Part shown: in pieces, positions 8,917 to 29,033 of the stretch
How the letters are laid out: the number at the start of each line of letters is the position of its first letter
How positions within the stretch are numbered: the stretch's first letter is position 1
Origin: Thermomucor indicae-seudaticae
Lineage: Eukaryota; Mucoromycota; Mucoromycetes; Mucorales; Lichtheimiaceae
Length of the DNA stretch: 36,423 bases
Assembly (NCBI GenBank): GCA_000787465.1
Contig: JSYX01000232.1
Coordinates: 1 to 36,423 of the forward strand
Reading direction: 5' to 3'
Notes under the pieces: model-generated
The model's database searches: none
The model's input: only the letters and a program-made list of their open reading frames with translations
Told to the model about the DNA's origin: nothing
Translations under genes and position numbers: made by a program

Positions 8917-11900
8917 CTAATTGAGGCTTTCAATCTCAAACCACTCGCCAGTGGATGGATCGACTGTCTGCACATAAAACTCCCGCAATGCTTCGATGGC
9001 CTTCTCTTCGATCTGAATTCGGATCAAGCTCTTCTTCGTCTTCTTTCCTTTGATCCATTGGTCTTCTAATTCTTGCTGCCGCTGAATATCTTGGAATGAA
9101 CGCACACCTCCGTGACCAGGGATCGACTGTGATTTCACTGTTGAACGCTGCCGTCGAATAGGAGTTAGTGCAAAATTGGACCCAAGACTGATAGTAGGAT
9201 CAAAGTCAAGTTCTCGCGGCTTCTGCTCTGCATTGAGCTTGCGGACATCATCCGCGGACTCAAATATTTCTTCTTTGGACACATAACTAGTCCTGATATG
9301 TTAGCGAAAAAGCGTATCTTTAGCAGCAGCATCACTCACATTTTTTTGCCCTTTGAACTCTCTTCCACAGAACTTCCTGTACTCGTCGACAAAGGACTTA
9401 TGTCTTTCCAAGACAACTGCGGCTTCTCAGGCGGTGTAGCATGAGAAGGCGCTACTTTACCCCACACAGGTTTTGGAGACGTGGATGCTGCTGCAGCGGC
9501 AGCCGCCAGCTCCTGTTGATGCAGCTTTCGACGCTCTTTTTGCGAGAGCTTTTTCGGTATATGGACAGGGGCTGAAAGCTAGATGCGATAAAAAGCTCTT
9601 GAGACCGATAACTTAATCCATATCCGCTCTTGCTTACCTTCCCAGATTGTCCTGACGAACCAGGCGGCGTCGCGAGCTGCTCTCCCAAGATATCCCTTAG
9701 CGAGGGCTTCGACCTATGACATAGCATGTTTAGCCGTAATGCAACTTGACCTCTGACTCTACGCACAACATACTCGGCTGATCCAGCAGCGGTCAACGGT
9801 ATCGCCCAGCCTTGCCGAGAAGTACCGGCAGGGCTAGTTGATGGCTTGGTATTTCCATATTCATGCAGATCAGTCATAGCAGGCTTTTCTTCCTCCGTTT
9901 TACTCTCCTTGGGTGATATCACATCGTCCTCATCCATAGAAAATATCATGCCATCTTCTGAATCACCGCTTTTCTCTGCTGACCTGACAGGCGATGGCAT
10001 TATGGTGACGAGTGTTTCAGCATAGTTGCTGATCACAGGCTGGTCTTCGTGCGACATTGTGTAAAGCGAACACGAAAATTCAAGATCTTCATCGTCTGGA
10101 CTTTTCGTGGTCGATTCAAACGGAATTCCAGGCTGTCGTATATAAGGCATATCCATTGCTTGACTGCGTCGAACGGTTTCTTCAAGCTCCTTAATGATTG
10201 ATTGGTCCAAGTCCTCCAAACCCCTAGTTTCCGATAAGCGCATGTGCATAGCCTCGAGTGCAGTAGAAAAATCTTACCCATTGTTAAGGAAAATGTCCAA
10301 GTTGGCAGCTATGAATTTGAGGCATGCGTCTTTGAGACAGTCTGCCAGATATAGCTTCGATTTTTCCAGCAGTTTTCTCGCCGACTTGAGATCCAAAAAT
10401 CGAACAAGAGAGGCTTCGCATATTCTCTTCAGGTTGTACAGCAACAGCTCATCGGCAACACATAGCGTCTCGAGCAAAAGCATCATCATTTCTTCACGAC
10501 TATCCTTGATGATATCAGCAAACAAAGACTTATCATCGAAGTCGCCGTAGAAGTGTCGAAGCAAGATCTCCATTGTTTCTTTCCTAATATGTGATACGTC
10601 CACAGGCACACATGCTTCTGCTGTATGACGTCTTCGCCGTTCTACAGTCCAGACAGAGTTTGGTTCAAACAAAGCCCCAAAGAAAGGACAACGTTGCCGA
10701 ACGACGACTTCATGACATAGGAGCTCCCCATCCGATAACATAAGACGAACGTTCCAAAACTTTTGCGACTCTAGCAGCCAAAGTGTATCCTGAGTAATAG
10801 TAGGCTCAGGAGTATTGCTGAAAGACGATGATGCTGAAGCAAGCAATTCTCGTAAATCGAATATTTTTGCCAGCTGGACGAGTTCTTTTTGTATTTGGTC
10901 AACGGATGCGCTACTGGAACCACGCGATAAGCAAGGCAGTTGAAAGTATGCGCCCATTGGATGCAAGTAGCTGTCGGTATACAGATAGTCGAGTAACAGC
11001 AACATTGAACTTGGGTCGTACTCTTTGTTAAGTCGCATCCTCCTCACGCCGTTTTGCTCGACCATGGTTATGTCGGGATGTCCACCGCCCAGAAACAGTT
11101 TTCGGAGCGTTGGGCTTCGACAAGCAAGCAGACAGGAGTGACAATATAGATGCTTGCCTTCACAAAGATCAAATACGATGTCCAGAGTCTTATCTTTCGC
11201 AGCCACCGCATCTATATCTTTCCAGGCCAGTTGTATCGCGTCTTCAATTCGTCTCTCAAACACTTCACAGATCGTCGCCGTAACCTTTTCGACATCTTCC
11301 TCTTCATCCTTTTCTGCAGAAGCAATATTCGACACCTCCTTTAATTGCTTTTCTTTCTCCCGTAGCAAGTCATTTATTTGGTGCTCGAGCCTCTTGCCTA
11401 TAACGGCATGAGGCAGCGCGTTTGCCAAGTCATCTCGAAGCGTCGACTTTACCAAATCAACAGGACCTGTTTGGTACTCTGATCGTAACGCCATGAATGC
11501 TCCACTTGAATTTGCGCAAACTCGTATGCATCGCTGTAGATTCGGCAACGCAGAAAATTTGTAATTATTATCTTTGCTATCTCCAATGGGGGTGCCCGTA
11601 AACACTTGTCCCGATTTCGTACAAACAATCAGTTCTCCTTGCCGACCCATGCTGGCATCAGTCGCTGCTAGATGCGGTTTCCGCAGCGTCCAAACACGCT
11701 TTGGTGAGCTTATCGTAACCGTCGCCTTAGACTTTGGACGCGTCTTATCTGCTTGCCGCATGCTGGAGCTTGGTTTACATGACCAGACATACACATCTCC
11801 ATTATTTGATAAGGTTGCCATATGATTATCATTACAAGGGAGAAGCTTGACCATGTAATTGACTGAACTAGAATGGACTCGCAAATAAGCTGGGAATCTT

Positions 11901-13582
11901 TGGACAGGGAAGCTGTCATTGATACCTGTTAATCTTGGGTCATCCGCTGTCACAATACTTGTCGTTACTCACAAGATCTTTTGTTGGGTGTAGTTGCAAA
12001 GCAAAATGACTTCATGGTTGTCGAAAAGAACGGCTGTGGCGTATTCCTACAACATGACTCAGGATTAACGAAAAAGGAACCAGGAACCACAACAATGTAC
12101 ATACCGTCGCTGACACCTGAGTAATGCCAGCAGTAAATGCGACCTTTCGCGGTATCACTTGTCGCAGGTCATCGGCGGTGGAGTGATAGCCTGTTAATTC
12201 GATGAGTATCGAAGCTAAGACCGCTAACGTATAGCCTACACCCACCCAATTGCCCTTGGTTGTATCCAAACGTAAATATATCGGTCTTTGTATATACAAC
12301 TGAATGCACTGCTGATGCGGCAGCTCCAATGATTGCTTGTTTCTTCAGGCATTGTGCCTGTACTTTTCGTGGGACTAGCTGTGCACCCTCCTTGCTGTCC
12401 TCCAGCTCGTATCCTAATGCAAAATAGCAGTTTCATCCAATCAGATTCAGTTCCGAAAGCTTGTGCCCAATTTCCTCTTACCCAGCTGGCCGAATTCATT
12501 ACTGCCAAACGTGATCACGTTGCGACTCTCTGTAACAGCAACTGTGTGGTCTCGACCAAGAGCGACAGCGATGATGCGTTCGGACCATGGCACAGGACGA
12601 AACGTCAACTGGGTATCTGACTCTTTACCCGTTCCCAATCTACCACTCTGACCGAATCCACATAGCAACAAATTATGTGTTGTCTCCGTGGTCACGACAG
12701 CTGAATGGTACTTTGACATGTGCACGGATTCAATCATAACTCGCGGCCTCGTCATTATTTTTTTCGAACGCTGCGACTCGAACTCCAAGGGAACACGTTC
12801 GGGAAACTGCCTATTTTCCGAATCACGGTGACCGAGCACGTAGTTGGCATTGCTTCCCCACGAGTACAAGGCCGTTCCTCCACTGATTTGCCTCTTCCTT
12901 GGCTTGTCCGCCGCTGTTTCTAACATGGTGTCGTCTCCATTGACTGGATCATCCACTGTTACTTGGACTACTGGAAACGTGTTCTCTACCGTTGTGAAAT
13001 AAAGTTCGAGCGGTTTCAGGCCCTCGTAATCCTACAGACACAAGAAGGAGAGCATTACGTAAGTGCGCACATCACCAACTGCATTCTGGCAACTACCTTG
13101 ATATTAAGATCGATATCATGACGTTGCATAAGCATCAGTGCAATTTCTATGTTGCCGAGATATAACGCCCTAGTTCATTGAACAGACATAGCATTAGACC
13201 GACTGATCCCGGTGCTTTAATATCCGAGAATTAAAGAAGGGTCGATGACGAGAACCAACACTTGCCTGTGTAAAGCTGTCCAACCGTTTTCGTGATCCCG
13301 GAGATTCACATCAACCAGTGGGCATTCTACTAGTAATTTCACAATTTCGACTCGATTCCGTGCTGCAGCCAAATGCAGTGCCGTTCTCCCGAGAATGGAC
13401 CGTTTATTGAGGTTAATCTGTCTCGTTCCTCCTGCGGCCTTCGAATGTCGTTGCACATGGCGATGGCCTTGGTCACCTTTCAATAACGTAGGTGGCGGGC
13501 CAGTACCGGACGTGGCTCTTTCGATTAAGTCCCGAATAAGTTCTACATTGTTGTCTTTTACGGCTTTAAAGATCGAAATCAT
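8917..13582 (-). CDS. IBtk-like ankyrin-RCC1-BTB-BTB protein (11 exons, 1347 aa)
   Basis: Exons: 13266-13582, 13097-13169, 12482-13031, 12246-12413, 12105-12190, 11973-12046, 10278-11912, 9774-10223, 9638-9713, 9340-9578, 8917-9292; 4044 nt in frame. Domains in order: ankyrin repeats (aa 1-145; GRTALHLAAARNRVEIVKLL), RCC1 blades (about 165-480; LYSWGSNANYVLG, ITFGSNEFGQLG, FTFGYNQGQLG), a charged coiled coil (592-650), BTB1 (666-784), BTB2 (808-934), a disordered region, and a C-terminal conserved helix ending EFYVQT..GEWFEIE. Length and order match animal IBtk and fission yeast Btb3, where the BTB domains recruit Cullin-3, so a ubiquitin-ligase adaptor role is expected. Intron 1 starts with GC (AG|GCAAGT) rather than GT. 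The exon 6-7 junction uses a 60-nt intron because nearer AGs break the frame. Confidence 0.9.
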
Positions 13583-17762: not shown

Positions 17763-18153
17763 TGCGGCCCGACTAACCTGTTCCCTGGTTCCTGAAATTG
17801 TTCCCTTACAAATCTTTAATCTTGAATCATGCAGATCGACCAATCAGGCATCGGCTCGGATCTTTTTTTCTCCCGGATGCATGCATGGAAAGCGCTGAAT
17901 GGCAGTAGGCTAATCATATACGCGTTGAGCGTATATTTTACACAGAAAGCAACAGGCCATAATCCAAGTATAACCAAAAGTTTTGGATCATGTTCAACAT
18001 GGGCTCTATTCAGCCATTACGCAAAGTAAGGAAATGCTTGAACTTTTCGCCGGCACGGTTCGAGTCGTTTCCTCTTGGATGTCACTCCAGTGCTTGTGTA
18101 CCTTGAGGACTTGAACCATGCCAATGTGAACAGTCTCCTCAGAAAAAAAAACG

Positions 18154-18375
18154 TCATCCAGACATTTGGCTCTTGCCGGAATGCATGACGAAGCTTCGTG
18201 ACGGGCAGAACAAAGGAAAAGCGATGACGCATTCGTATATGACAAGTTTTCCCCCGTCTCTTAGAAATACGCTGTATGTATTTTTCTCCTCTTCAAGTCG
18301 TTGCGTGGATTCATCCCGGTAAAAGACGACCTTCGAATCACGAGCCGCACTTGAGCATTGAGAATGAAGATTCCG
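18154..18375 (-). other. Coding-like fragment, no start codon found
   Basis: One minus-strand frame reads SSAARDSKVVFYRDESTQRL, then EEEKNTYSVFLRDGGKLVIY and a hydrophobic stretch, ending in TGA at 18154. Its composition is strongly protein-like (amphipathic helix, then beta-strand), but it lacks an ATG and a recognisable family. It could be an exon of an unresolved gene or a remnant. Confidence 0.3.
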
Positions 18376-18548
18376 AGAATCGCAGGATCAGGGTGAATCT
18401 GAATCGCTGTAACAAGTTCGAATAGAATCGCAAACACACAAACAAGTGACTCATCGGGATTCTCAAAAAAGCTAGCAACGGCAGACCTGTCGAAAGGTAC
18501 AAGTGAAAAGACAGAGAGAGAGCGAACGGGCCACTTTTCCTTCTCTCT

Positions 18549-18557
18549 ATATATAGA
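18549..18557 (+). promoter_or_regulatory. TATA-like element just before the pseudo-kinesin ATG
   Basis: TATATATAG ends only 14 bases before the ATG at 18572, too close for a normal leader. Either it is not the functional TATA box, or translation starts elsewhere. Confidence 0.35.
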
Positions 18558-18571
18558 TAGATCCTCTTCTC

Positions 18572-21500
18572 ATGTCGTACAAAAGAGAACAGGCGTTTGA
18601 GTTTACCAAATGCTTACGGGAAGGTCATGACGGAATAAGCTCGTGCTCTCAAGAAACGCAACGACTTGTTCGGCTTGCGCTCGATGGTACGCTCTTTCAT
18701 TTTTCCGTGAAGCAACCCGCTTTATTTTATTTGTTTGGGATTAGGAAACAATGCAGCAGCGGTCTTTATCACAACTGGGTAAAGCAACGTTGACAGGTAA
18801 TGGACATCCGCCAAACCAACTCACATTATATATTTGCTTCTCAGGGCAGCAGATTGTTATAAAATAAAGTAAAAAAGGATGCTACTGTTTATATCAGAAA
18901 AGAAGCGCCTAATCTTCTCTTGCTATGCATAGAAAAGACATTACTTTCCAGCTTATCAACAGGCTGGGTATTGAGCTCACTGCACTCAACATTGATCGAA
19001 GAAAGAAAGCCATGGCGGATATACAGTTGGATTACGCGTAAGTCCGGGGACACGTGGAGCAGGTGCACAACAAAGACTTGAACTGCGGATAGTTACATTG
19101 GTATAGTCGACAGTTGCTGTTACGATCTGCGGGCAGGGCATCGGATCGAGAGTGAGCAATTGAAAGGAAGAACTGTCTTGGAAATAACCCTTAATCTGGA
19201 CAAATTTGCTGCTGGTCGCGTTGTTAGACATCAGGATTCTGGAAAACGGCGTCGAGCAATGGATGAAACGAGCGAAACAGATCGATTCTATATGGGACAA
19301 AGTGAAGGCGGGTTCAAGCATACCCTTTGTTTTACACATGAGGCTTACGGATGAATCGCTTTTCCTGGGGAACTTGGTGGTTGCCGATCTCTTGGAACCC
19401 GAGTTCTGCGAGCCTGCCATTGCAAAACCAGGTTGTTCCATTTTTGATTCTTTTACTCTTCTGAGTAAGTGCTACAGATCAAGCGTAACGGGTTTAACCA
19501 TGTCCCCGTTAATATGGCTGCACACAAGGGAACCAGATAAGCACCTTTCTACCAAGTCAGCAATCTGAAACGAAGGAGGGTGGATCAATAGATACAAGCT
19601 CTAATGTCCTTGTAAAACTACTCGGCGAATACCTCTGTGGACTTGGTCAAACCGTCCTTTTTATGCACTTGAATGTAAGTTGAACTTCTGGAATAGATGC
19701 ATACACGGTTAGTCTAATGCGGCAAAGGAATCTCTGCTTTTACACTTGGACGAGGTATTGGAGACACTCTGTTTTGCCCGTACGTTACATTCGGTTCACT
19801 GCCGTATAGTCCGGAACAAGAGGGATGTCCGCGTCGACTATTATCGAGCCCGTCTGGGAAAGGCGATCCAAGACTGCCAACGTCAAGAGGTAAACAGACA
19901 GTATCGCAAACAAAGAGAGGGAGTTCATACCAGGATCAACAACAGGCAGCATGCAAAGAATTGCAGGACTTGTGGCTGGAAGCCCAAGCTAAGATGGACC
20001 GCATGGAAAAGGAAATAAAAGATCAAGCGGATCTTCTAGAGCAACTGCAGAAAAAGCAAACCGCTTACAAAGAAGTAGCATTTCAACGAACTGCTCAGGA
20101 CGTTTCCGTCGAGGTAGGATTCAGTGGTACTTGCGTGCTTGGTCGCTTCTGATCATATCTGGCAGGATTATAACAACATCCAACATGAAAAGCTTGCGCT
20201 TGTAAATGAAAAGAAGGCTCTGGAAAGCGAGCTAGAATATCATAAATATCTCTCTTCAAAGTCTTTAACACGGGCAATGGAATTGGAGAAGCAGCTGCAT
20301 GTAGCGACTCGCGAGCAAGGTATGGATAACCGCGAATTCTCTTTGTGTGCAGTGTTTGACTCATTGTGAGTTCTTATTTTAGATATCCGTAGAAGTGAAA
20401 TGCAGGAAAGCAAGGTACTGATCTTTAATTGTATGTAGTCAAGTGTTCTCTATATTGAAGCAAAAACCGCTCTGCTTAGGAAACTGTGCATGCGGGCACG
20501 CAAACCAATCTGCAAGGCTTGTATTTACAGCAACTGCAAGAAGCCATTGATGACTATGCTGCGAGATTGGATGAAGCGGAAAAGCTATGCTGTACTCTGC
20601 AGGAACAGCTAAGAGGTCAGGCCATCGAGCAGCAAGAAATCGAATCGTGTGTGCAGGAGTACCTTCAAACAATTACGCGACTCGAGGTAAATGCAGATAG
20701 TGTAGATGCTCTGATATTTCTCAGGTTCTCATGGTTAAGCAGCGCAAAAACCAAGCACTCGTTGAAAAATTTAGAGAGCAACTGGAAATTGAGCACGAGG
20801 ACCGGGACCAAGAAATGCGCCAGGCAATCCTGCAGGTATAAACTAAACCATCGTCTAGACAAATTCAACAACAGGTTTAAGACACTCAAATGGACAGACC
20901 CGTATGTATCAAGGACAACATCAAAGAATGAAGACGCACATTGAGCAACTCAAAGTACGTAAACATTCCTTGCCGACCGAGGCATTCATTATTCGCGACT
21001 GACGAAAACACATCAGGAGCAGCTGAACGAGTGTAAGGCTGACCTTTTGAAATACAAGGCCACTGCGAGCGATTTTAAGGTATGCATCATGATCGTTTGC
21101 TTAGTGGAGAGTAAAGAATATTTTAATTTATCCTAAAATACTATGTAGGTGCGGTGGAAAGAGGAAATGGAATGGAGCCACCGTCAGAACATGATGATGC
21201 AAGAGGAGCGTAACCGTACGAGATGTTATGTCCAGAGCCTGCGTGAGCATGTCTCGGAAACCTTCAAGAGTATTTACTGTGAAAACGTCGATCATGTTAA
21301 AGTGGACAAGGCACCCAACCAACGCCAAGTAACTCTGTCACCTGACGCCCTGGACATTACAGTGCATTTTCCTTCGTCCCCTCTACGGGATGCGCTTGCT
21401 GCAGACGACAGTGACGTCGTTATGGCTTTAGACTCGCAGTCTATCTCTAATCAAGAATTAAAGTTGGAACCTAGAGATACCGACGACGGCGGTCAGAACC

Positions 21501-21858
21501 GCGCGCCTGCAAAGAATGTGCCGCACGAAGAAACAAACAGTGTTGCTCAGCGGAAGCGGAACAAAGGAAAATCTAAAGCGACTTTCTCTGGTAAGTGACA
21601 AAACTCCTGGCTATTACATATAACATTCAGTCGATCTTCTTTATATGCTAACGGCGCGGTTTATAACTATCCTTTTTATTGTTAGCATCTCCACCGCTAA
21701 GCGAAAACCGGCGAGGACGCATAAGAAAACCGCAAAGTTCAAAGGATGGTATAAAGAAAATCGGTGATAGTCATACAGCCGGAGGTAGTAAATGTAGGCG
21801 AGTCCTGCGGTCCATTAACGAGAACCTCGCAAGTCCGCAAAAACCCGCACGGCCATGA
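18572..21858 (+). CDS. Pseudo-kinesin: degenerate kinesin motor-like domain plus coiled coil (17 exons, 767 aa)
   Basis: Exons: 18572-18686, 18745-18778, 18845-18868, 18933-19037, 19093-19151, 19228-19464, 19529-19674, 19713-19889, 19946-20113, 20166-20319, 20383-20414, 20480-20686, 20725-20835, 20898-20954, 21017-21079, 21149-21590, 21686-21858; 2304 nt in frame. aa 10-285 follow the kinesin motor in order: SQETQRLVRLALDGNNAAAV then TTGAADCYKI in place of the P-loop; AYIGIVDSCCYDL for SYxEIYNExxYDL; GSSIPF for SSRSH; LVVADLLEPE for LVDLAGSE; LDEVLETLCFARTLHSV for the closing ETxxTLxFAxR helix. The catalytic Lys/Thr, switch I serines and switch II Gly are all gone, so ATP hydrolysis is very unlikely. 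aa 290-600 are coiled coil; the tail is acidic, then basic. The parent is probably kinesin-14. A role as a non-motor microtubule-binding partner is inference. The N-terminal strand of the motor is missing, so the start may be wrong. Confidence 0.75.
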
Positions 21859-22066: not shown

Positions 22067-23173
22067 ATGCTCTCCACGTTTCAATTTCCAGACCCACCAC
22101 CCAGACAAGCCAAGCCTGGCAAGAAAAGAAAAGATGATGAGGATTCGCTACAGACCTTGGCAACGCTAGTCAACAAACTCTCAGTACAAGTTGAGAAACT
22201 AGAAAGCGTTACTACTAGAACAGCTGGAACGACCAACGATGATAAACGCCATGTCAAAGAAGGAGACGAAAGTTCAGCAGGTTGGGCGGCAGCGCTCAAG
22301 GCCGCAGGCGCAGAAGAAGCTGGAAAACCCAGCATGTTCTTTATAGACCCCTTGGGACCCACGGTGCAGCAGGAATATGAGAACGTCTTGAGTAGTGTTC
22401 CGCGCAGCAAACGTCATTCATCTTCTTGCTGTTGTGAATCCAAGACCCTCGAAGTGGCAGCAGGCATACCTTGGTTACCGCCTGTATCCGTGCACGGAGC
22501 CAATGAGATGAACCCGCTACAATCTGCTTATGCTAACTGGTGTACCTTGATGCGATGCCTGCCAATGATGGATACGACCTCGCAAACCTTTGTTCGTAGT
22601 ATCGGTCTCTTTGCGATGCGTCAACTGCTGCATTCGATCAAGCAACACCAGCACATGCACCACCAACAAAAGCAGTTGCACGCAGCATCCAATAATAATT
22701 TACCTTATTTGTCACCAGTAACGACACTACATCATTCGTATCCAGTATTTTCTCAACATGGCGGCTCGAGTAACAGTAGCAGTAGTTGTGGCGGCGGGTC
22801 TTCTTCGCTAGTCGCTTTGGGTCCAAACTCGTCGTCTTCGTTCCTAAAGACGTCCTCAACTTGTCTTAACCCTCACTGCGACAATTCGTTGGATACTACT
22901 TCCCGGAAAAAGGCAGATGCTTGGGTCCCTTCTTATAGCCATCTTTTCTCCTCTGGGACCGGCAACGATCAAAACGCCAACACTTCTTCTACCACTCCTT
23001 TACCAACAGCATCTCCTCAACAACGACAGCCCAATCTAGGATTTCATTACGTATCCGAGTCTACTACCACCACCACCACTTCTTCTTCTTCTCGACACCA
23101 TCATGTCTTGAAATTGCGACGCTGGTTCAAGAAAAATAACAAGGTTGCTCCCGCTGGCGGACATCATGGATGA
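22067..23173 (+). CDS. Low-complexity orphan protein (368 aa), single exon
   Basis: I do not recognise this protein. It begins with a proline- and lysine-rich stretch containing a nuclear-signal-like PGKKRK and a short heptad segment (LATLVNKLSVQVEKLESV). A more ordered central region follows (about aa 85-195, with SKTLEVAAGIPWLPPVSV and FVRSIGLFAMRQLL). Then come His/Gln, Ser/Gly and Thr/Ser runs, and a basic end (LKLRRWFKKNNK). The middle probably folds; the rest is disordered. A nuclear regulatory role would be a guess. It is tandem to the pseudo-kinesin (208 bases downstream) and convergent with the methyltransferase gene, with 69 bases between stops. Confidence 0.7.
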   Translation: MLSTFQFPDPPPRQAKPGKKRKDDEDSLQTLATLVNKLSVQVEKLESVTTRTAGTTNDDKRHVKEGDESSAGWAAALKAAGAEEAGKPSMFFIDPLGPTVQQEYENVLSSVPRSKRHSSSCCCESKTLEVAAGIPWLPPVSVHGANEMNPLQSAYANWCTLMRCLPMMDTTSQTFVRSIGLFAMRQLLHSIKQHQHMHHQQKQLHAASNNNLPYLSPVTTLHHSYPVFSQHGGSSNSSSSCGGGSSSLVALGPNSSSSFLKTSSTCLNPHCDNSLDTTSRKKADAWVPSYSHLFSSGTGNDQNANTSSTTPLPTASPQQRQPNLGFHYVSESTTTTTTSSSSRHHHVLKLRRWFKKNNKVAPAGGHHG

Positions 23174-23242: not shown

Positions 23243-24020
23243 TCACTCTGTGTTGTTGTTGTTGTTGTTTTTCTTATATCCCGTTGCAATGAGAAAGATT
23301 TCCGTTGATTCCTTTCTGGATGCGTCAGGTTTCTCTTGTCGAACCCGACTGAATCGTTTTCGAAGTTTCTCTCTAAACGCGACTTCGTCTCCACCCATCA
23401 AAATCTGTTCCACGAGTATTCAAGTTTTAGAGGACTTATCAAGGTCAAAGGCTGAGGATTTTTTTACCTTGGTGATAAATGCACCTCGTGGTGCAAGGAC
23501 AGTTTCCGCGAACGCCAGGGCCGATTCACAGAGTTCCTAAAAGCAGTATTAGAAAAAAAAGGAGACAATGCATGTATGAACATGTTTGTCTCACCAAGGA
23601 CCGAGCATGATCCGCCATATGGTTGCCCGTAAACCGGGGCGCCATATCCGAACACACGAGCTGCACAGGCGAGCCTTGGAGCGCTTCGTGCACCTGCGCC
23701 TGGACCTCTGGGCTTGTAAAATCGCCCTGAATGACGGTTGCATTGGGGACCGGTTCCATGGGCAAAATGTCGACCGCGACCACATGCCTGGCTTTGGCTG
23801 CAGCCACTTGGGTCCAGCCTCCCGGCGCAGCTCCGCAATCCACCACGACATGGCCAGGACGGATCAGCCTGTACTTTTCGTCCATTTGCAGAAGCTTGAA
23901 TGCGCTTCGGGCTCGGTAATGCTGCGATTTGGCTGCTTTCACATACGGATCGCGTGCCTGGCGCTGAATCCAGGCTTTTGACGAAGAAGAATAACAACGT
24001 CGGACAAACAAGAAAAGCAT
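23243..24020 (-). CDS. MRM2: Mitochondrial rRNA 2'-O-ribose methyltransferase, FtsJ/Mrm2 type (3 exons, 218 aa)
   Basis: Exons 23595-24020, 23468-23536, 23243-23404 (426+69+162 nt, all phase 0). The protein starts with a short basic, Ser-rich mitochondrial presequence (LFVRRCYSSSSKAW). The FtsJ core follows: YRARSAFKLLQ, the SAM loop VVDCGAAPGGWTQVA, VAVDILPMEP, CSDMAP, and after splicing GAFITK and KPDASRKESTEIF. The catalytic tetrad K42-D125-K165-E197 is complete. The family includes E. coli RrmJ and yeast Mrm2, which methylate a uridine in the A-loop of the large-subunit rRNA. The presequence and compact length favour the mitochondrial member over Trm7 or Spb1. The frame extends upstream of the chosen ATG (next in-frame ATG at 24149), but those residues are low in quality. 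Confidence 0.92.
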
Positions 24021-24081
24021 GCGGCCATCTCCGTCACTTGTCCCGCCCCAACACTGAAACGCGGGGCGAGAGTGCAAAAGC

Positions 24082-24109
24082 GCTCTCTCTCTCTCTCTCT
24101 GTCTCTCTG
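24082..24109 (+). repeat. CT microsatellite
   Basis: A (CT)n run with one interruption lies just upstream of the methyltransferase start. It could act as a pyrimidine promoter element but may be neutral. Confidence 0.6.
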
Positions 24110-24289
24110 TGGAGTCGATCGCCAGCCATTTCGAATGTTCATGTCGCACGCCGCTGCTTTGGCCACAACATTACTGTGCCCGGAACACACGGGCAACAAC
24201 TGGTCCATAAGAAGATGACAGGAGTGCCCAGCAGTCATCATCCACTCACATAAGGACTCGGCGAACAACAACAACAGCACTTCTACAGC

Positions 24290-27029: not shown

Positions 27030-29033
27030 CTACCGTTGAAGTTGCTGTGAGCCGCTTTGCGTATTATGATTGTTGTTGATGATGCGATTTCTCGCTTGAA
27101 GTGGGCCATGACACGAAGACCCCTTGGCTTCACGCAGATGATACTGCAAACCATTAATATTCTTGTACCGCTTGACGCAGTTCGGCATCGCGCACCGATA
27201 CGGCTTGTCGTAATTCTCAAGGTCAGGATGTGCAATCTTCATATGATAAAACAGACCACACGATTGCGGGAAGCTCATGTAGCACCCCGGTATGTCGCAG
27301 CCGTACGGTTTGAGGTTACTGAATACATCGTTCTGATCGTTTTGAGCGGCCAAGGTGTTGTTCGTAGCAGATTCAAGCGGGCTGATCTCGCTGCCATGTT
27401 GCTGCGTTAGCAAAGCCTGAAATGGTGCGCCTAATGGAGACGAAGAAGTCGAAGAACTTGCAAGCGAACAAGTATCCGAATTCGGGCCATAGCTTGTTGA
27501 TATGACCTTTTGCTGTTGTTGCTGTTGTCCGTCCGGTAGACCGTGAATAAAGGTGGTGGTTGATGTCGAAGAAGCTGAAGCTGCTGCTGCTGCTGCTGCT
27601 GCTTCTTTGTCTTTCTTAATTTGCATCATTCTCTGCAGCTTCCTCCAGCGATTCCGGCAATGCAGACCTGGCCGTCCATCAAAGAACTGGGCGATCTTTT
27701 GCCACTGTGATCCAAACTCCTCGTATTTCTCCATCAACCGTCGATCTTCTTCGGGTGTCCACTCGGAACGGTCAATGCTCGGGTCTAAACTCTCGCGCCA
27801 GCGCTTGGCGCATTGATCATCCGTCCTTCCCTCGAGCATATCCGCGATTTTGCTCCATTGATTGGGGTACTTCATCACACCTTCTCGAAGGAGCTGATCT
27901 TCCTCGTCGGTCCATGCACCTTTCCGCAACGACGGATCCAGTGAATGGAACCATCGCTTACGGCAGTTTTTGTTCGTCCGTCCCGGTACGCATGCCGCGA
28001 TCTTGGCCCATTTCTCCGTCTTGTCCCCGTACAGTTGGACCGCCAACCGGAGCAAATTGTCTTCTTCGGGCGTCCAGGGCGCTCTCTCCCTGCTGGCTTT
28101 CTTTTGCTTCTTGTTCGGCGGCTGCGACGGTTGTGTTTGAGTGGCGTTCGTTTGCTGAAATTCGCGCGTCTGCGGTAAAGTGATAGGAAAGGTGTTTGAC
28201 GAATTTCCAGAGTGCAATGGTGGCAGGGTGGTCGGAAGGTCGGGTACAGCCAAGACCGGGCTATGGACGATGTCGACAGGTTGATACATACCGTAAAAGC
28301 CTGGCAGAACAGATTCCATCTGGTTCGATAGACGCGTGAGAAAAAATAAATGACCGAGCTATTATCATCTGCACGCTGTAATCAAATAAAGTTAAGCTCG
28401 TACCGAAGGGAAATTGCCGAAATGATGGGTAAACGACGTCGAGCTTTCCGGACCCTGGGAGCTATTCTCGTATTTTAATGTCGTAAATGATGTCGTATGA
28501 AACTGTTGTTGCTGTTGTCGTTGCTGGTTATCATCTTGGGATGGCTTTAAAGCGGATTGTACCTGGGTTAAAAGGGGGTGTTATTGGTTCTTGGTCAAAC
28601 ACTTTACAGATGCGTATGAACTTACGTTAAGAGGCAACTGTGGATTGGCTTGGTTCGTTGCTGGGTGCTGATGTGGTATAAACGTAAATGTTGGCAAGGT
28701 ACCTGACAAGGAACCCGAGCTCCCCTGGACCAGGTTTAAAGATGATGGCTGCATCGCGTGCTGTGCGGAAGTGCTATTCGATCGAGGAGGCTCGACGATT
28801 TTGAACGCGGAATCTCGTCCCAAGTTGTCCTGATTTGGGTCCGGATGGGATAGCGTCAGATGCGGGTCGAAGGTATAGAGCTGCTGATACTGAAATCTTG
28901 TGGGTCAGACAGCGGTTCAGAGAGCAATGGGTTTACTGCATTCTTTGAAGAAGCTGCCTTGCTCAAAGCAGAAGAGCAGAAAAAAAGAACGCGTTGTCTG
29001 TGGCATAAAAATAGGGGGCGCGCCTCTTACCAT
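27030..29033 (-). CDS. Three-repeat Myb transcription factor with paired SFP1/JAZF1-type C2H2 fingers (4 exons, 571 aa)
   Basis: Exons: 29031-29033 (ATG only), 28626-28889, 28404-28562, 27030-28319. Exons 2-4 are clear; the single-codon first exon is the only in-phase start I found (ATG|GTAAGA, then TTTCAG|TAT). Domains: a disordered Q/S/P-rich N-terminus; R1 (about aa 221-274, APWTPEEDNLLRLAVQLYGD), R2 (275-326, GAWTDEEDQLLREGVMKYPN) and R3 (327-372, SEWTPEEDRRLMEKYEEFGS), all with the spaced tryptophans of c-Myb/Bas1 repeats; A10 and Q6 tracts; then two fingers at aa 483-546 (YGCDIPGCYMSFPQSCGLFY and YRCAMPNCVKRYKNINGLQY). The KRYKN-NGLxYH core is the SFP1/JAZF1 signature; the second finger has a long H-x9-H end. 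It is a nuclear sequence-specific DNA-binding factor; targets are unknown. Confidence 0.82.

Follow-up and report, generated by a model that had tools for sequence, protein, structure and literature searches.

The window analysed here, the whole stretch of 36,423 nucleotides of contig JSYX01000232.1 from Thermomucor indicae-seudaticae, belongs to a 24.8-Mb assembly of 735 contigs. Its plus strand carries a predicted gene at positions 18276-21858, which we designated W. W was spliced into 18 exons encoding 818 amino acids; 17 of 17 introns have GT-AG borders, and no stop occurs within the 818 codons. The splice sites were predicted from the sequence and from comparison with a paralogue, P, located on contig C443 of the same genome. 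A sequence-only reading of this DNA had placed a multi-exon gene here with a start at 18572, 17 exons and 767 amino acids. The gene was confirmed; its start and exon count were revised when an upstream exon was found at 18276-18408 (ATG at 18276, donor site at 18409), adding 48 residues. This exon was recognised because P carries a counterpart (MYFSPLQVVAWIHP / MELSKLNVIAWIHP); the first exon of P, MELSKLNVIAWIHPPEDQ, was aligned against MYFSPLQVVAWIHPGKRR in W. Thus, W seems to start upstream of 18572, a position that falls inside exon 2. The predicted exons of W are the following.

18276-18408, plus strand: exon 1, carrying the start codon; it probably corresponds to kinesin strand beta-1 and reads WIHP for RxRP; a matching exon is present in P.
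18561-18686, plus strand: exon 2, FEF..CL and helix alpha-1 (QRLVRLALDG), aligned to F.FD.VF and LV...L.G of kinesins.
18745-18778, plus strand: exon 3 (34 nt), strand preceding the P-loop (NNAAAVFITT).
18845-18868, plus strand: exon 4 (24 nt), P-loop position, GAADCYKI for GSGKTYTM; P likewise has a 24-nt exon.
18933-19037, plus strand: exon 5, helix alpha-2 region up to the start of beta-5 (IQLDYA).
19093-19151, plus strand: exon 6 (59 nt), YIGIVDSCCYDLRAGHRIE, counterpart of SYxEIYNExxxDLL; P also has a 59-nt exon.
19228-19484, plus strand: exon 7, alpha-3, switch I deletion, beta-6/7, switch II position (DLLEPE) and alpha-4.
19537-19674, plus strand: exon 8, loop 12 and alpha-5 (NVLVKLLGEYLCGLGQTVLFMHLN).
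19728-19889, plus strand: exon 9 (162 nt), alpha-6 (LDEVLETLCFARTLHSV) and neck; P also has a 162-nt exon.
19934-20113, 20166-20319, 20383-20414, 20480-20686, 20725-20835, 20898-20954 and 21017-21079, plus strand: exons 10-16, coiled-coil stalk, with an open spliced frame.
21149-21590, plus strand: exon 17, end of the stalk and part of the tail.
21686-21858, plus strand: exon 18, basic tail (ENRRGRIRKP...KCRRVLR) and stop codon.

The intron at 19675-19727 has a counterpart in P at an identical alignment column and phase. The intron at 19485-19536 has none, and P reads through; it was chosen because the resulting frame aligns with P and its sites are GT-CAG.

Several other genes lie in the window. 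A BTB-domain gene is located at 10277-11968 (minus strand; Pfam E=2.2e-14), and an FtsJ-like methyltransferase gene at 23526-24167 (minus strand; Pfam E=6e-36). An open frame of 357 amino acids just downstream of W (22100-23170, plus strand) had no Pfam match at E<=0.001. A Myb-like gene occupies 27033-28319 on the minus strand, and the nearest named relatives of its product, among the best 120 of 397 database matches, come from Apophysomyces (64% identity), Radiomyces, Rhizopus and Phycomyces. This fits a mould of the order Mucorales and bears out the Mucoromycota named in the sequence-only reading.

We searched the genome with the truncated W head (E<=10) and obtained the P locus, C443:2788-3195 on the minus strand, at E=4.4e-13. 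The other matches were six stretches of W itself; canonical kinesins were not found by this head at the same threshold, with six candidates scored. The P head is 37% identical to that of W. P was spliced by hand and gave 571 residues before a provisional last junction, followed by a tail with basic clusters. Four of the six head introns of P match those of W in alignment column and phase. A fifth bounds the 24-nt P-loop exon as in W and has the same phase, with a shift of seven columns next to a gap in the alignment. The remaining one, which follows exon 1, is four columns off and has a different phase. The W head contains two introns additional to those of P. Over 320 aligned codons, W and P were identical at 49, 59 and 32% of first, second and third codon positions, respectively, the third positions being close to saturation. 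This pattern is the one expected for proteins under selection rather than for decaying copies.

P also contains tandem repeats. At C443 1754-2185, an exon-plus-intron unit of about 110 bp occurs in four tandem copies, and three 42-nt exons plus the start of a fourth each give 14 residues, equal to two heptads of coiled coil. Since these units add heptads, the P stalk seems to have been enlarged through intragenic duplication. A second tandem repeat of 102 bp (34 residues, 2.4 copies) lies at C443 820-1064, in the region of the P tail.

The evidence for a kinesin head was weak with single sequences and convincing, at the level of sequence comparison, when W and P were taken together. Two truncated W models gave no kinesin match in Pfam at E<=10 (two weak matches, neither of them kinesin), and one truncated model gave no match in the PDB at E<=10. 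The kinesin-domain HMM search proposed with the sequence-only reading detected both heads under the curated cut-off: PF00225 matched the W head with the corrected start at E=0.026 and P at E=2.2e-4. An HMM built from the kinesins of the same genome scored the two heads at 13.0 and 13.9 bits, and the best of 2000 shuffles reached 5.5 bits. In PDB searches at E<=10, the corrected W head alone matched eight sequences, all of them KIF1A/kinesin-3 (best E=0.27), and P alone matched ten, comprising four kinesins (best E=0.002) and six unrelated sequences. The W+P profile matched 33 sequences at E<=10, all of them kinesins (best E=1.8e-6). Of these, 29 bear a kinesin name (kinesin, KAR3, KIF and the like), and the other four are CENP-E (two matches) and OSM-3 (two matches), which we take to be kinesins.

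Profile-profile comparison gave the same picture. A local HHalign alignment of W+P with the 22 other kinesin heads of the genome gave a probability of 94.9%, with E=4.6e-8 (for a single comparison) and a score of 61.8 over 258 columns, covering W residues 54-324. Among the controls, 200 column-shuffled pairs gave at most 8.2% and a score of at most 28.7, and the reversed pair gave 0.2%. The global alignment gave 97.1% over 299 columns and included the first exon. Exon 1 falls on strand beta-1 in the global HHalign and merged alignments, and lies outside the local one; together with its presence in P, these alignments make it the likely counterpart of that strand. The W head is collinear with kinesin motor domains, as had been claimed. 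The weak single-sequence scores could also come from a coiled-coil protein whose N-terminal domain is unrelated to kinesins and resembles them by chance, but the 33 PDB matches of the profile consist of kinesins throughout, and neither the HMM scores (0/2000 shuffles) nor the HHalign score (0/200 shuffled pairs) was reached by the controls; we regard this explanation as exceedingly improbable.

The residues of catalysis are absent from both heads. At the position of the P-loop YGQTGSGKT, W reads I-TTGAADC and P reads F-TSGPVDP, without the lysine and the Ser/Thr that follows it; neither TTGAADCY in W nor TSGPVDPF in P fits GQTxxGK[ST]. The P-loop motif was also absent from the three forward frames of window positions 17900-19900, in a scan that misses P-loops split by introns, as in the control locus L039. 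The scan of the P locus found one chance GGCPIGKT upstream of the P start. At the switch II position, DLAGSE is replaced by DLLEPE in W and by DLLTPW in P. The sequence-only reading had reported TTGAADCY and DLLEPE at these two positions, and the alignments bore this out. It had also read GSSIPF in place of SSRSH; both alignments show instead that the switch I loop, NxxSSRSH, is deleted as a stretch in W and P, and S[SA]R[ST] was absent from the scanned frames at both loci.

Other parts of the head persist. W and P retain the hydrophobic strands, LVxxxLxGxN, LxKxLGxYLxG of alpha-5, LDExLxxLxF of alpha-6, and in alpha-4 the pattern SFxxL, which is SLxxL in kinesins. At the beta-1 RxRP position, both read WIHP. 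In loop 12, HxPYRxSKLT of kinesins is represented by SIDTSSNVLV in W and HVATDTSVLT in P; with the YR and SK residues gone, the contact that kinesins normally make with microtubules is changed at the least, and canonical microtubule binding may also be lost. As predicted, W is a genuine gene and a kinesin relative without an ATPase site. The central idea of the sequence-only reading is therefore right, and several of its details are wrong.

We found at least 22 further kinesin loci in the genome (L039-L060, from the best-scoring candidates). Nine of the 22 fall into one kinesin-4-like clade and three group with KIF5B; family names other than kinesin-1 were assigned from motifs and are presumptive. 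The P-loop and the switch I and switch II motifs are present in 20 of the 22 loci. In the kinesin-14-like L042, the P-loop is followed by a GC-AG intron. Two kinesin-4-like loci look half-degenerate in sequence: L058 (C235:33500-36000) has an intact P-loop and has lost the switch I and switch II motifs, and L060 (C81:35200-37600) has an intact P-loop, no switch I motif and a switch II altered to DLAAPE.

P shows the same motif losses as W, indicating that the loss of the catalytic motifs probably came before the W/P duplication and that both copies were kept afterwards. The sequence-only reading had proposed that a kinesin relative without motor function is being maintained here and is not decaying, and the comparison with P agrees: the same losses, a largely common exon structure, an open frame and the codon-position identities all point to maintenance. 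Decaying kinesin pseudogenes whose frames are open by chance would be in keeping with the partial degeneration of L058 and L060, which suggests that kinesin duplicates may erode in this genome, and with the lack of an orthologue outside it. However, W runs without a stop through all its exons with GT-AG borders at every intron, and P, at 37% identity, has likewise kept its frame open and shares several exon sizes and most intron phases with W. Between the two, the second codon position is the best conserved. We consider decay very unlikely.

The same reading had proposed a search for orthologues in other Mucoromycota. No relative outside this genome was found among 5.8 billion proteins at E<=0.001, either with the truncated W (3497 candidates) or with the W+P alignment. 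In the latter search, scoring covered the 7999 candidates with the most words in common, many of which were probably drawn by the coiled coil. As a control, the neighbouring Myb-like gene retrieved 397 proteins, with many named Mucorales among the best 120. Because the database is rich in Mucorales proteins, a well-annotated orthologue as similar as W is to P should have surfaced. A badly predicted orthologue with many exons could have been missed by a protein search. In the literature covered, as titles and the beginnings of abstracts and with subscription journals mostly outside the scope, there was no description of such a protein in Mucoromycota, nor of a 'pseudokinesin'.

We then considered the family from which W and P derive. 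In the tree, they were mutual neighbours (100/100). The pair was unplaced among the families, with long branches, an unsettled bootstrap and one kinesin-8 reference, and the branch leading to it measured about 9.9 changes per column (5.5 + 4.4 on either side of the midpoint root). Against the kinesins of the same genome, the W+P profile scored highest with L042 (25.9 bits; next 14.9) and gave 6.6-8.1 bits with the kinesin-1 genes. With a provisional KIF18A reference sequence it gave 11.8 bits, below members of kinesin-14, -7, -4 and -3 from the same genome. Among PDB entries, the profile matched 7tqx, 7lff and 7tr1 best (E 1.8e-6 to 3e-5), and KAR3 4etp came next (E 1.8e-4); we take 7lff and 7tr1 to be Candida Kip3. 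In PMC9300613, 7tqx is Kip3 of Candida albicans. The W intron 5' of exon 3 shares its column and phase with the kinesin-4-like loci L040, L046, L048 and L058 and is absent in P (21 of 22 loci mapped). The pointers to the parent family thus disagree: PDB matches of the profile suggest kinesin-8, scores within the genome kinesin-14, and one intron kinesin-4.

One reading of these data is that W and P derive from a Kip3/Klp5-Klp6-type kinesin-8 and have replaced it. In addition to the three best PDB matches, the longest match extends into the neck (NERDTRVHSYKRNI vs HNLDRHVGSYLKMI). No clear kinesin-8 was seen among the 22 loci, which were taken from the best-scoring candidates: the kinesin-8 P-loop, YGATG, occurs in none of them, and none is a clear KIF18A orthologue. 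The provisional KIF18A sequence scored at best 248 bits with the kinesins of this genome, within the cross-family range. With no canonical kinesin-8 among the 22 loci, a replacement by W and P is possible, and the observation carries the argument no further. Against it stand the low KIF18A score with the W+P profile and the missing placement in the tree, and a real kinesin-8 could be absent from the assembly or from the list of best-scoring candidates. On balance, we consider a degenerate kinesin-8 unlikely. A bolder form of this idea, in which W and P would be an obligate, all-passive kinesin heterodimer performing the microtubule-length or spindle control of a lost kinesin-8 without ATP hydrolysis, seems to us improbable.

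Beyond the head, both proteins have features of a stalk and a tail. W residues 340-600 contain no proline, and 66 of 235 windows in W are heptad-like, compared with a shuffle mean of 28, a count reached by 6 of 500 shuffles. In P, 114 of 214 windows are heptad-like (shuffle mean 18; reached by 0 of 500 shuffles), with two prolines. The last 98 residues of W have a net charge of +13. The P tail has basic clusters, yet across its 188 residues the net charge is only +1, its last junction being provisional. From these features we infer that in W and P the coiled coil is dimeric and the tail is nuclear or binds microtubules.

Taken together, W and P are likely to be non-catalytic kinesins, in which a motor-derived head is followed by a coiled-coil stalk and by a tail that carries basic clusters, each acting as a static scaffold or regulatory partner rather than as a motor. 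By sequence, both heads descend from a kinesin motor domain and no longer have the residues that bind and hydrolyse ATP; in the mechanism that we propose, neither head would bind ATP. The stalk would mediate dimerisation, as W-W, P-P or W-P. The head could then bind microtubules, tubulin or a partner kinesin in a manner independent of nucleotide, and the tail would take the protein to the nucleus or spindle. W and P thus probably work as static proteins that are linked to microtubules or to a partner.

In one more specific version, W and/or P would pair with a true kinesin and supply a passive second head, as Vik1 and Cik1 do with Kar3. The profile scored best within the genome with the kinesin-14-like L042, and KAR3 4etp ranks right after the three Candida Kip3 chains in the PDB. 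However, the heads of Kar3, Vik1 and Cik1 are C-terminal and those of W and P are N-terminal, so that the stalk of a kinesin-14 would pair in the opposite order. In addition, the names of the 33 PDB matches (E<=10) include neither Vik1 nor Cik1, chains of which are presumably present in the PDB copy searched. According to PMC4338441, the paralogues Vik1 and Cik1 share a motor homology domain in which ATP-binding elements are missing, and this domain provides a foothold for Kar3. W and P resemble them as a pair of paralogues with such a domain. Vik1 and Cik1 differ in being yeast proteins with the head at the other end. This partner role is in our view doubtful. The sequence-only reading had named Vik1/Cik1 as the known precedent; they are not the sole one, for PMC3387196 also describes KIF26A/B and Smy1 as being without motor activity.

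Another version is a microtubule-independent scaffold like Smy1, whose head is a protein-protein module without tubulin binding. The basic and tyrosine contacts of loop 12 are missing from both copies, and Smy1p is thought to be non-motile on microtubules, with a catalytic pocket and microtubule-binding sites that deviate (PMC3387196). On the other hand, the basic clusters in both tails could bind microtubules or DNA, and KIF26B, which likewise lacks the motifs, associates with microtubules according to the same source. We consider this version rather unlikely.

Kinesin-8 (Kip3, Klp5/Klp6, KIF18A), with its N-terminal head, is like W and P in giving the best PDB match of the profile and in a possible similarity of the neck, and differs in that true kinesin-8s are active motors. 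The head of Smy1 is N-terminal as well. KIF26A and KIF26B are much longer than W and P. Neither KIF26 nor Smy1 appears by name in the 33 PDB matches that the W+P profile gave at E<=10. The following comparisons are by published description. KIF26A/KIF26B (kinesin-11) have, like W and P, a kinesin-like head without IFAYGQT and DLAGSE and show no ATP-dependent release from microtubules (PMC3387196); unlike W and P, they are animal proteins. Smy1 of Saccharomyces is a fungal kinesin-like protein thought to be a non-motor (PMC3387196), and it has been assigned to kinesin-1 (PMC5076506) or to kinesin-11 (PMC3387196); with the kinesin-1 assignment, it contrasts with the low scores of W and P against the kinesin-1 genes of their own genome. 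Two paralogues of fission yeast kinesin-8 form a heterodimer (PMC8950801). The orphan group pseudoKinesin-21 consists of divergent kinesins found only in fungi (PMC5076506), and W and P are divergent fungal kinesins too. By analogy, W and P may work like KIF26, Smy1 or Vik1/Cik1, with no claim to membership of these families.

Non-catalytic heads are described as microtubule-associated proteins or non-motile kinesin relatives (PMC3387196) and as footholds for a partner motor (PMC4338441). Each of those known has taught what motor heads can do without ATP. To our knowledge, they are few. W and P would be a very divergent further example of this kind of protein and apparently an independent case in Mucorales, in a genome where 22 more kinesin loci were found, two of them seemingly half-degenerate. 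The hallmarks of the case are a head at the N-terminus, a switch I loop deleted in full and two paralogues retained after the loss. It offers a natural test of which parts of a kinesin head persist for structure or binding after catalysis is lost.
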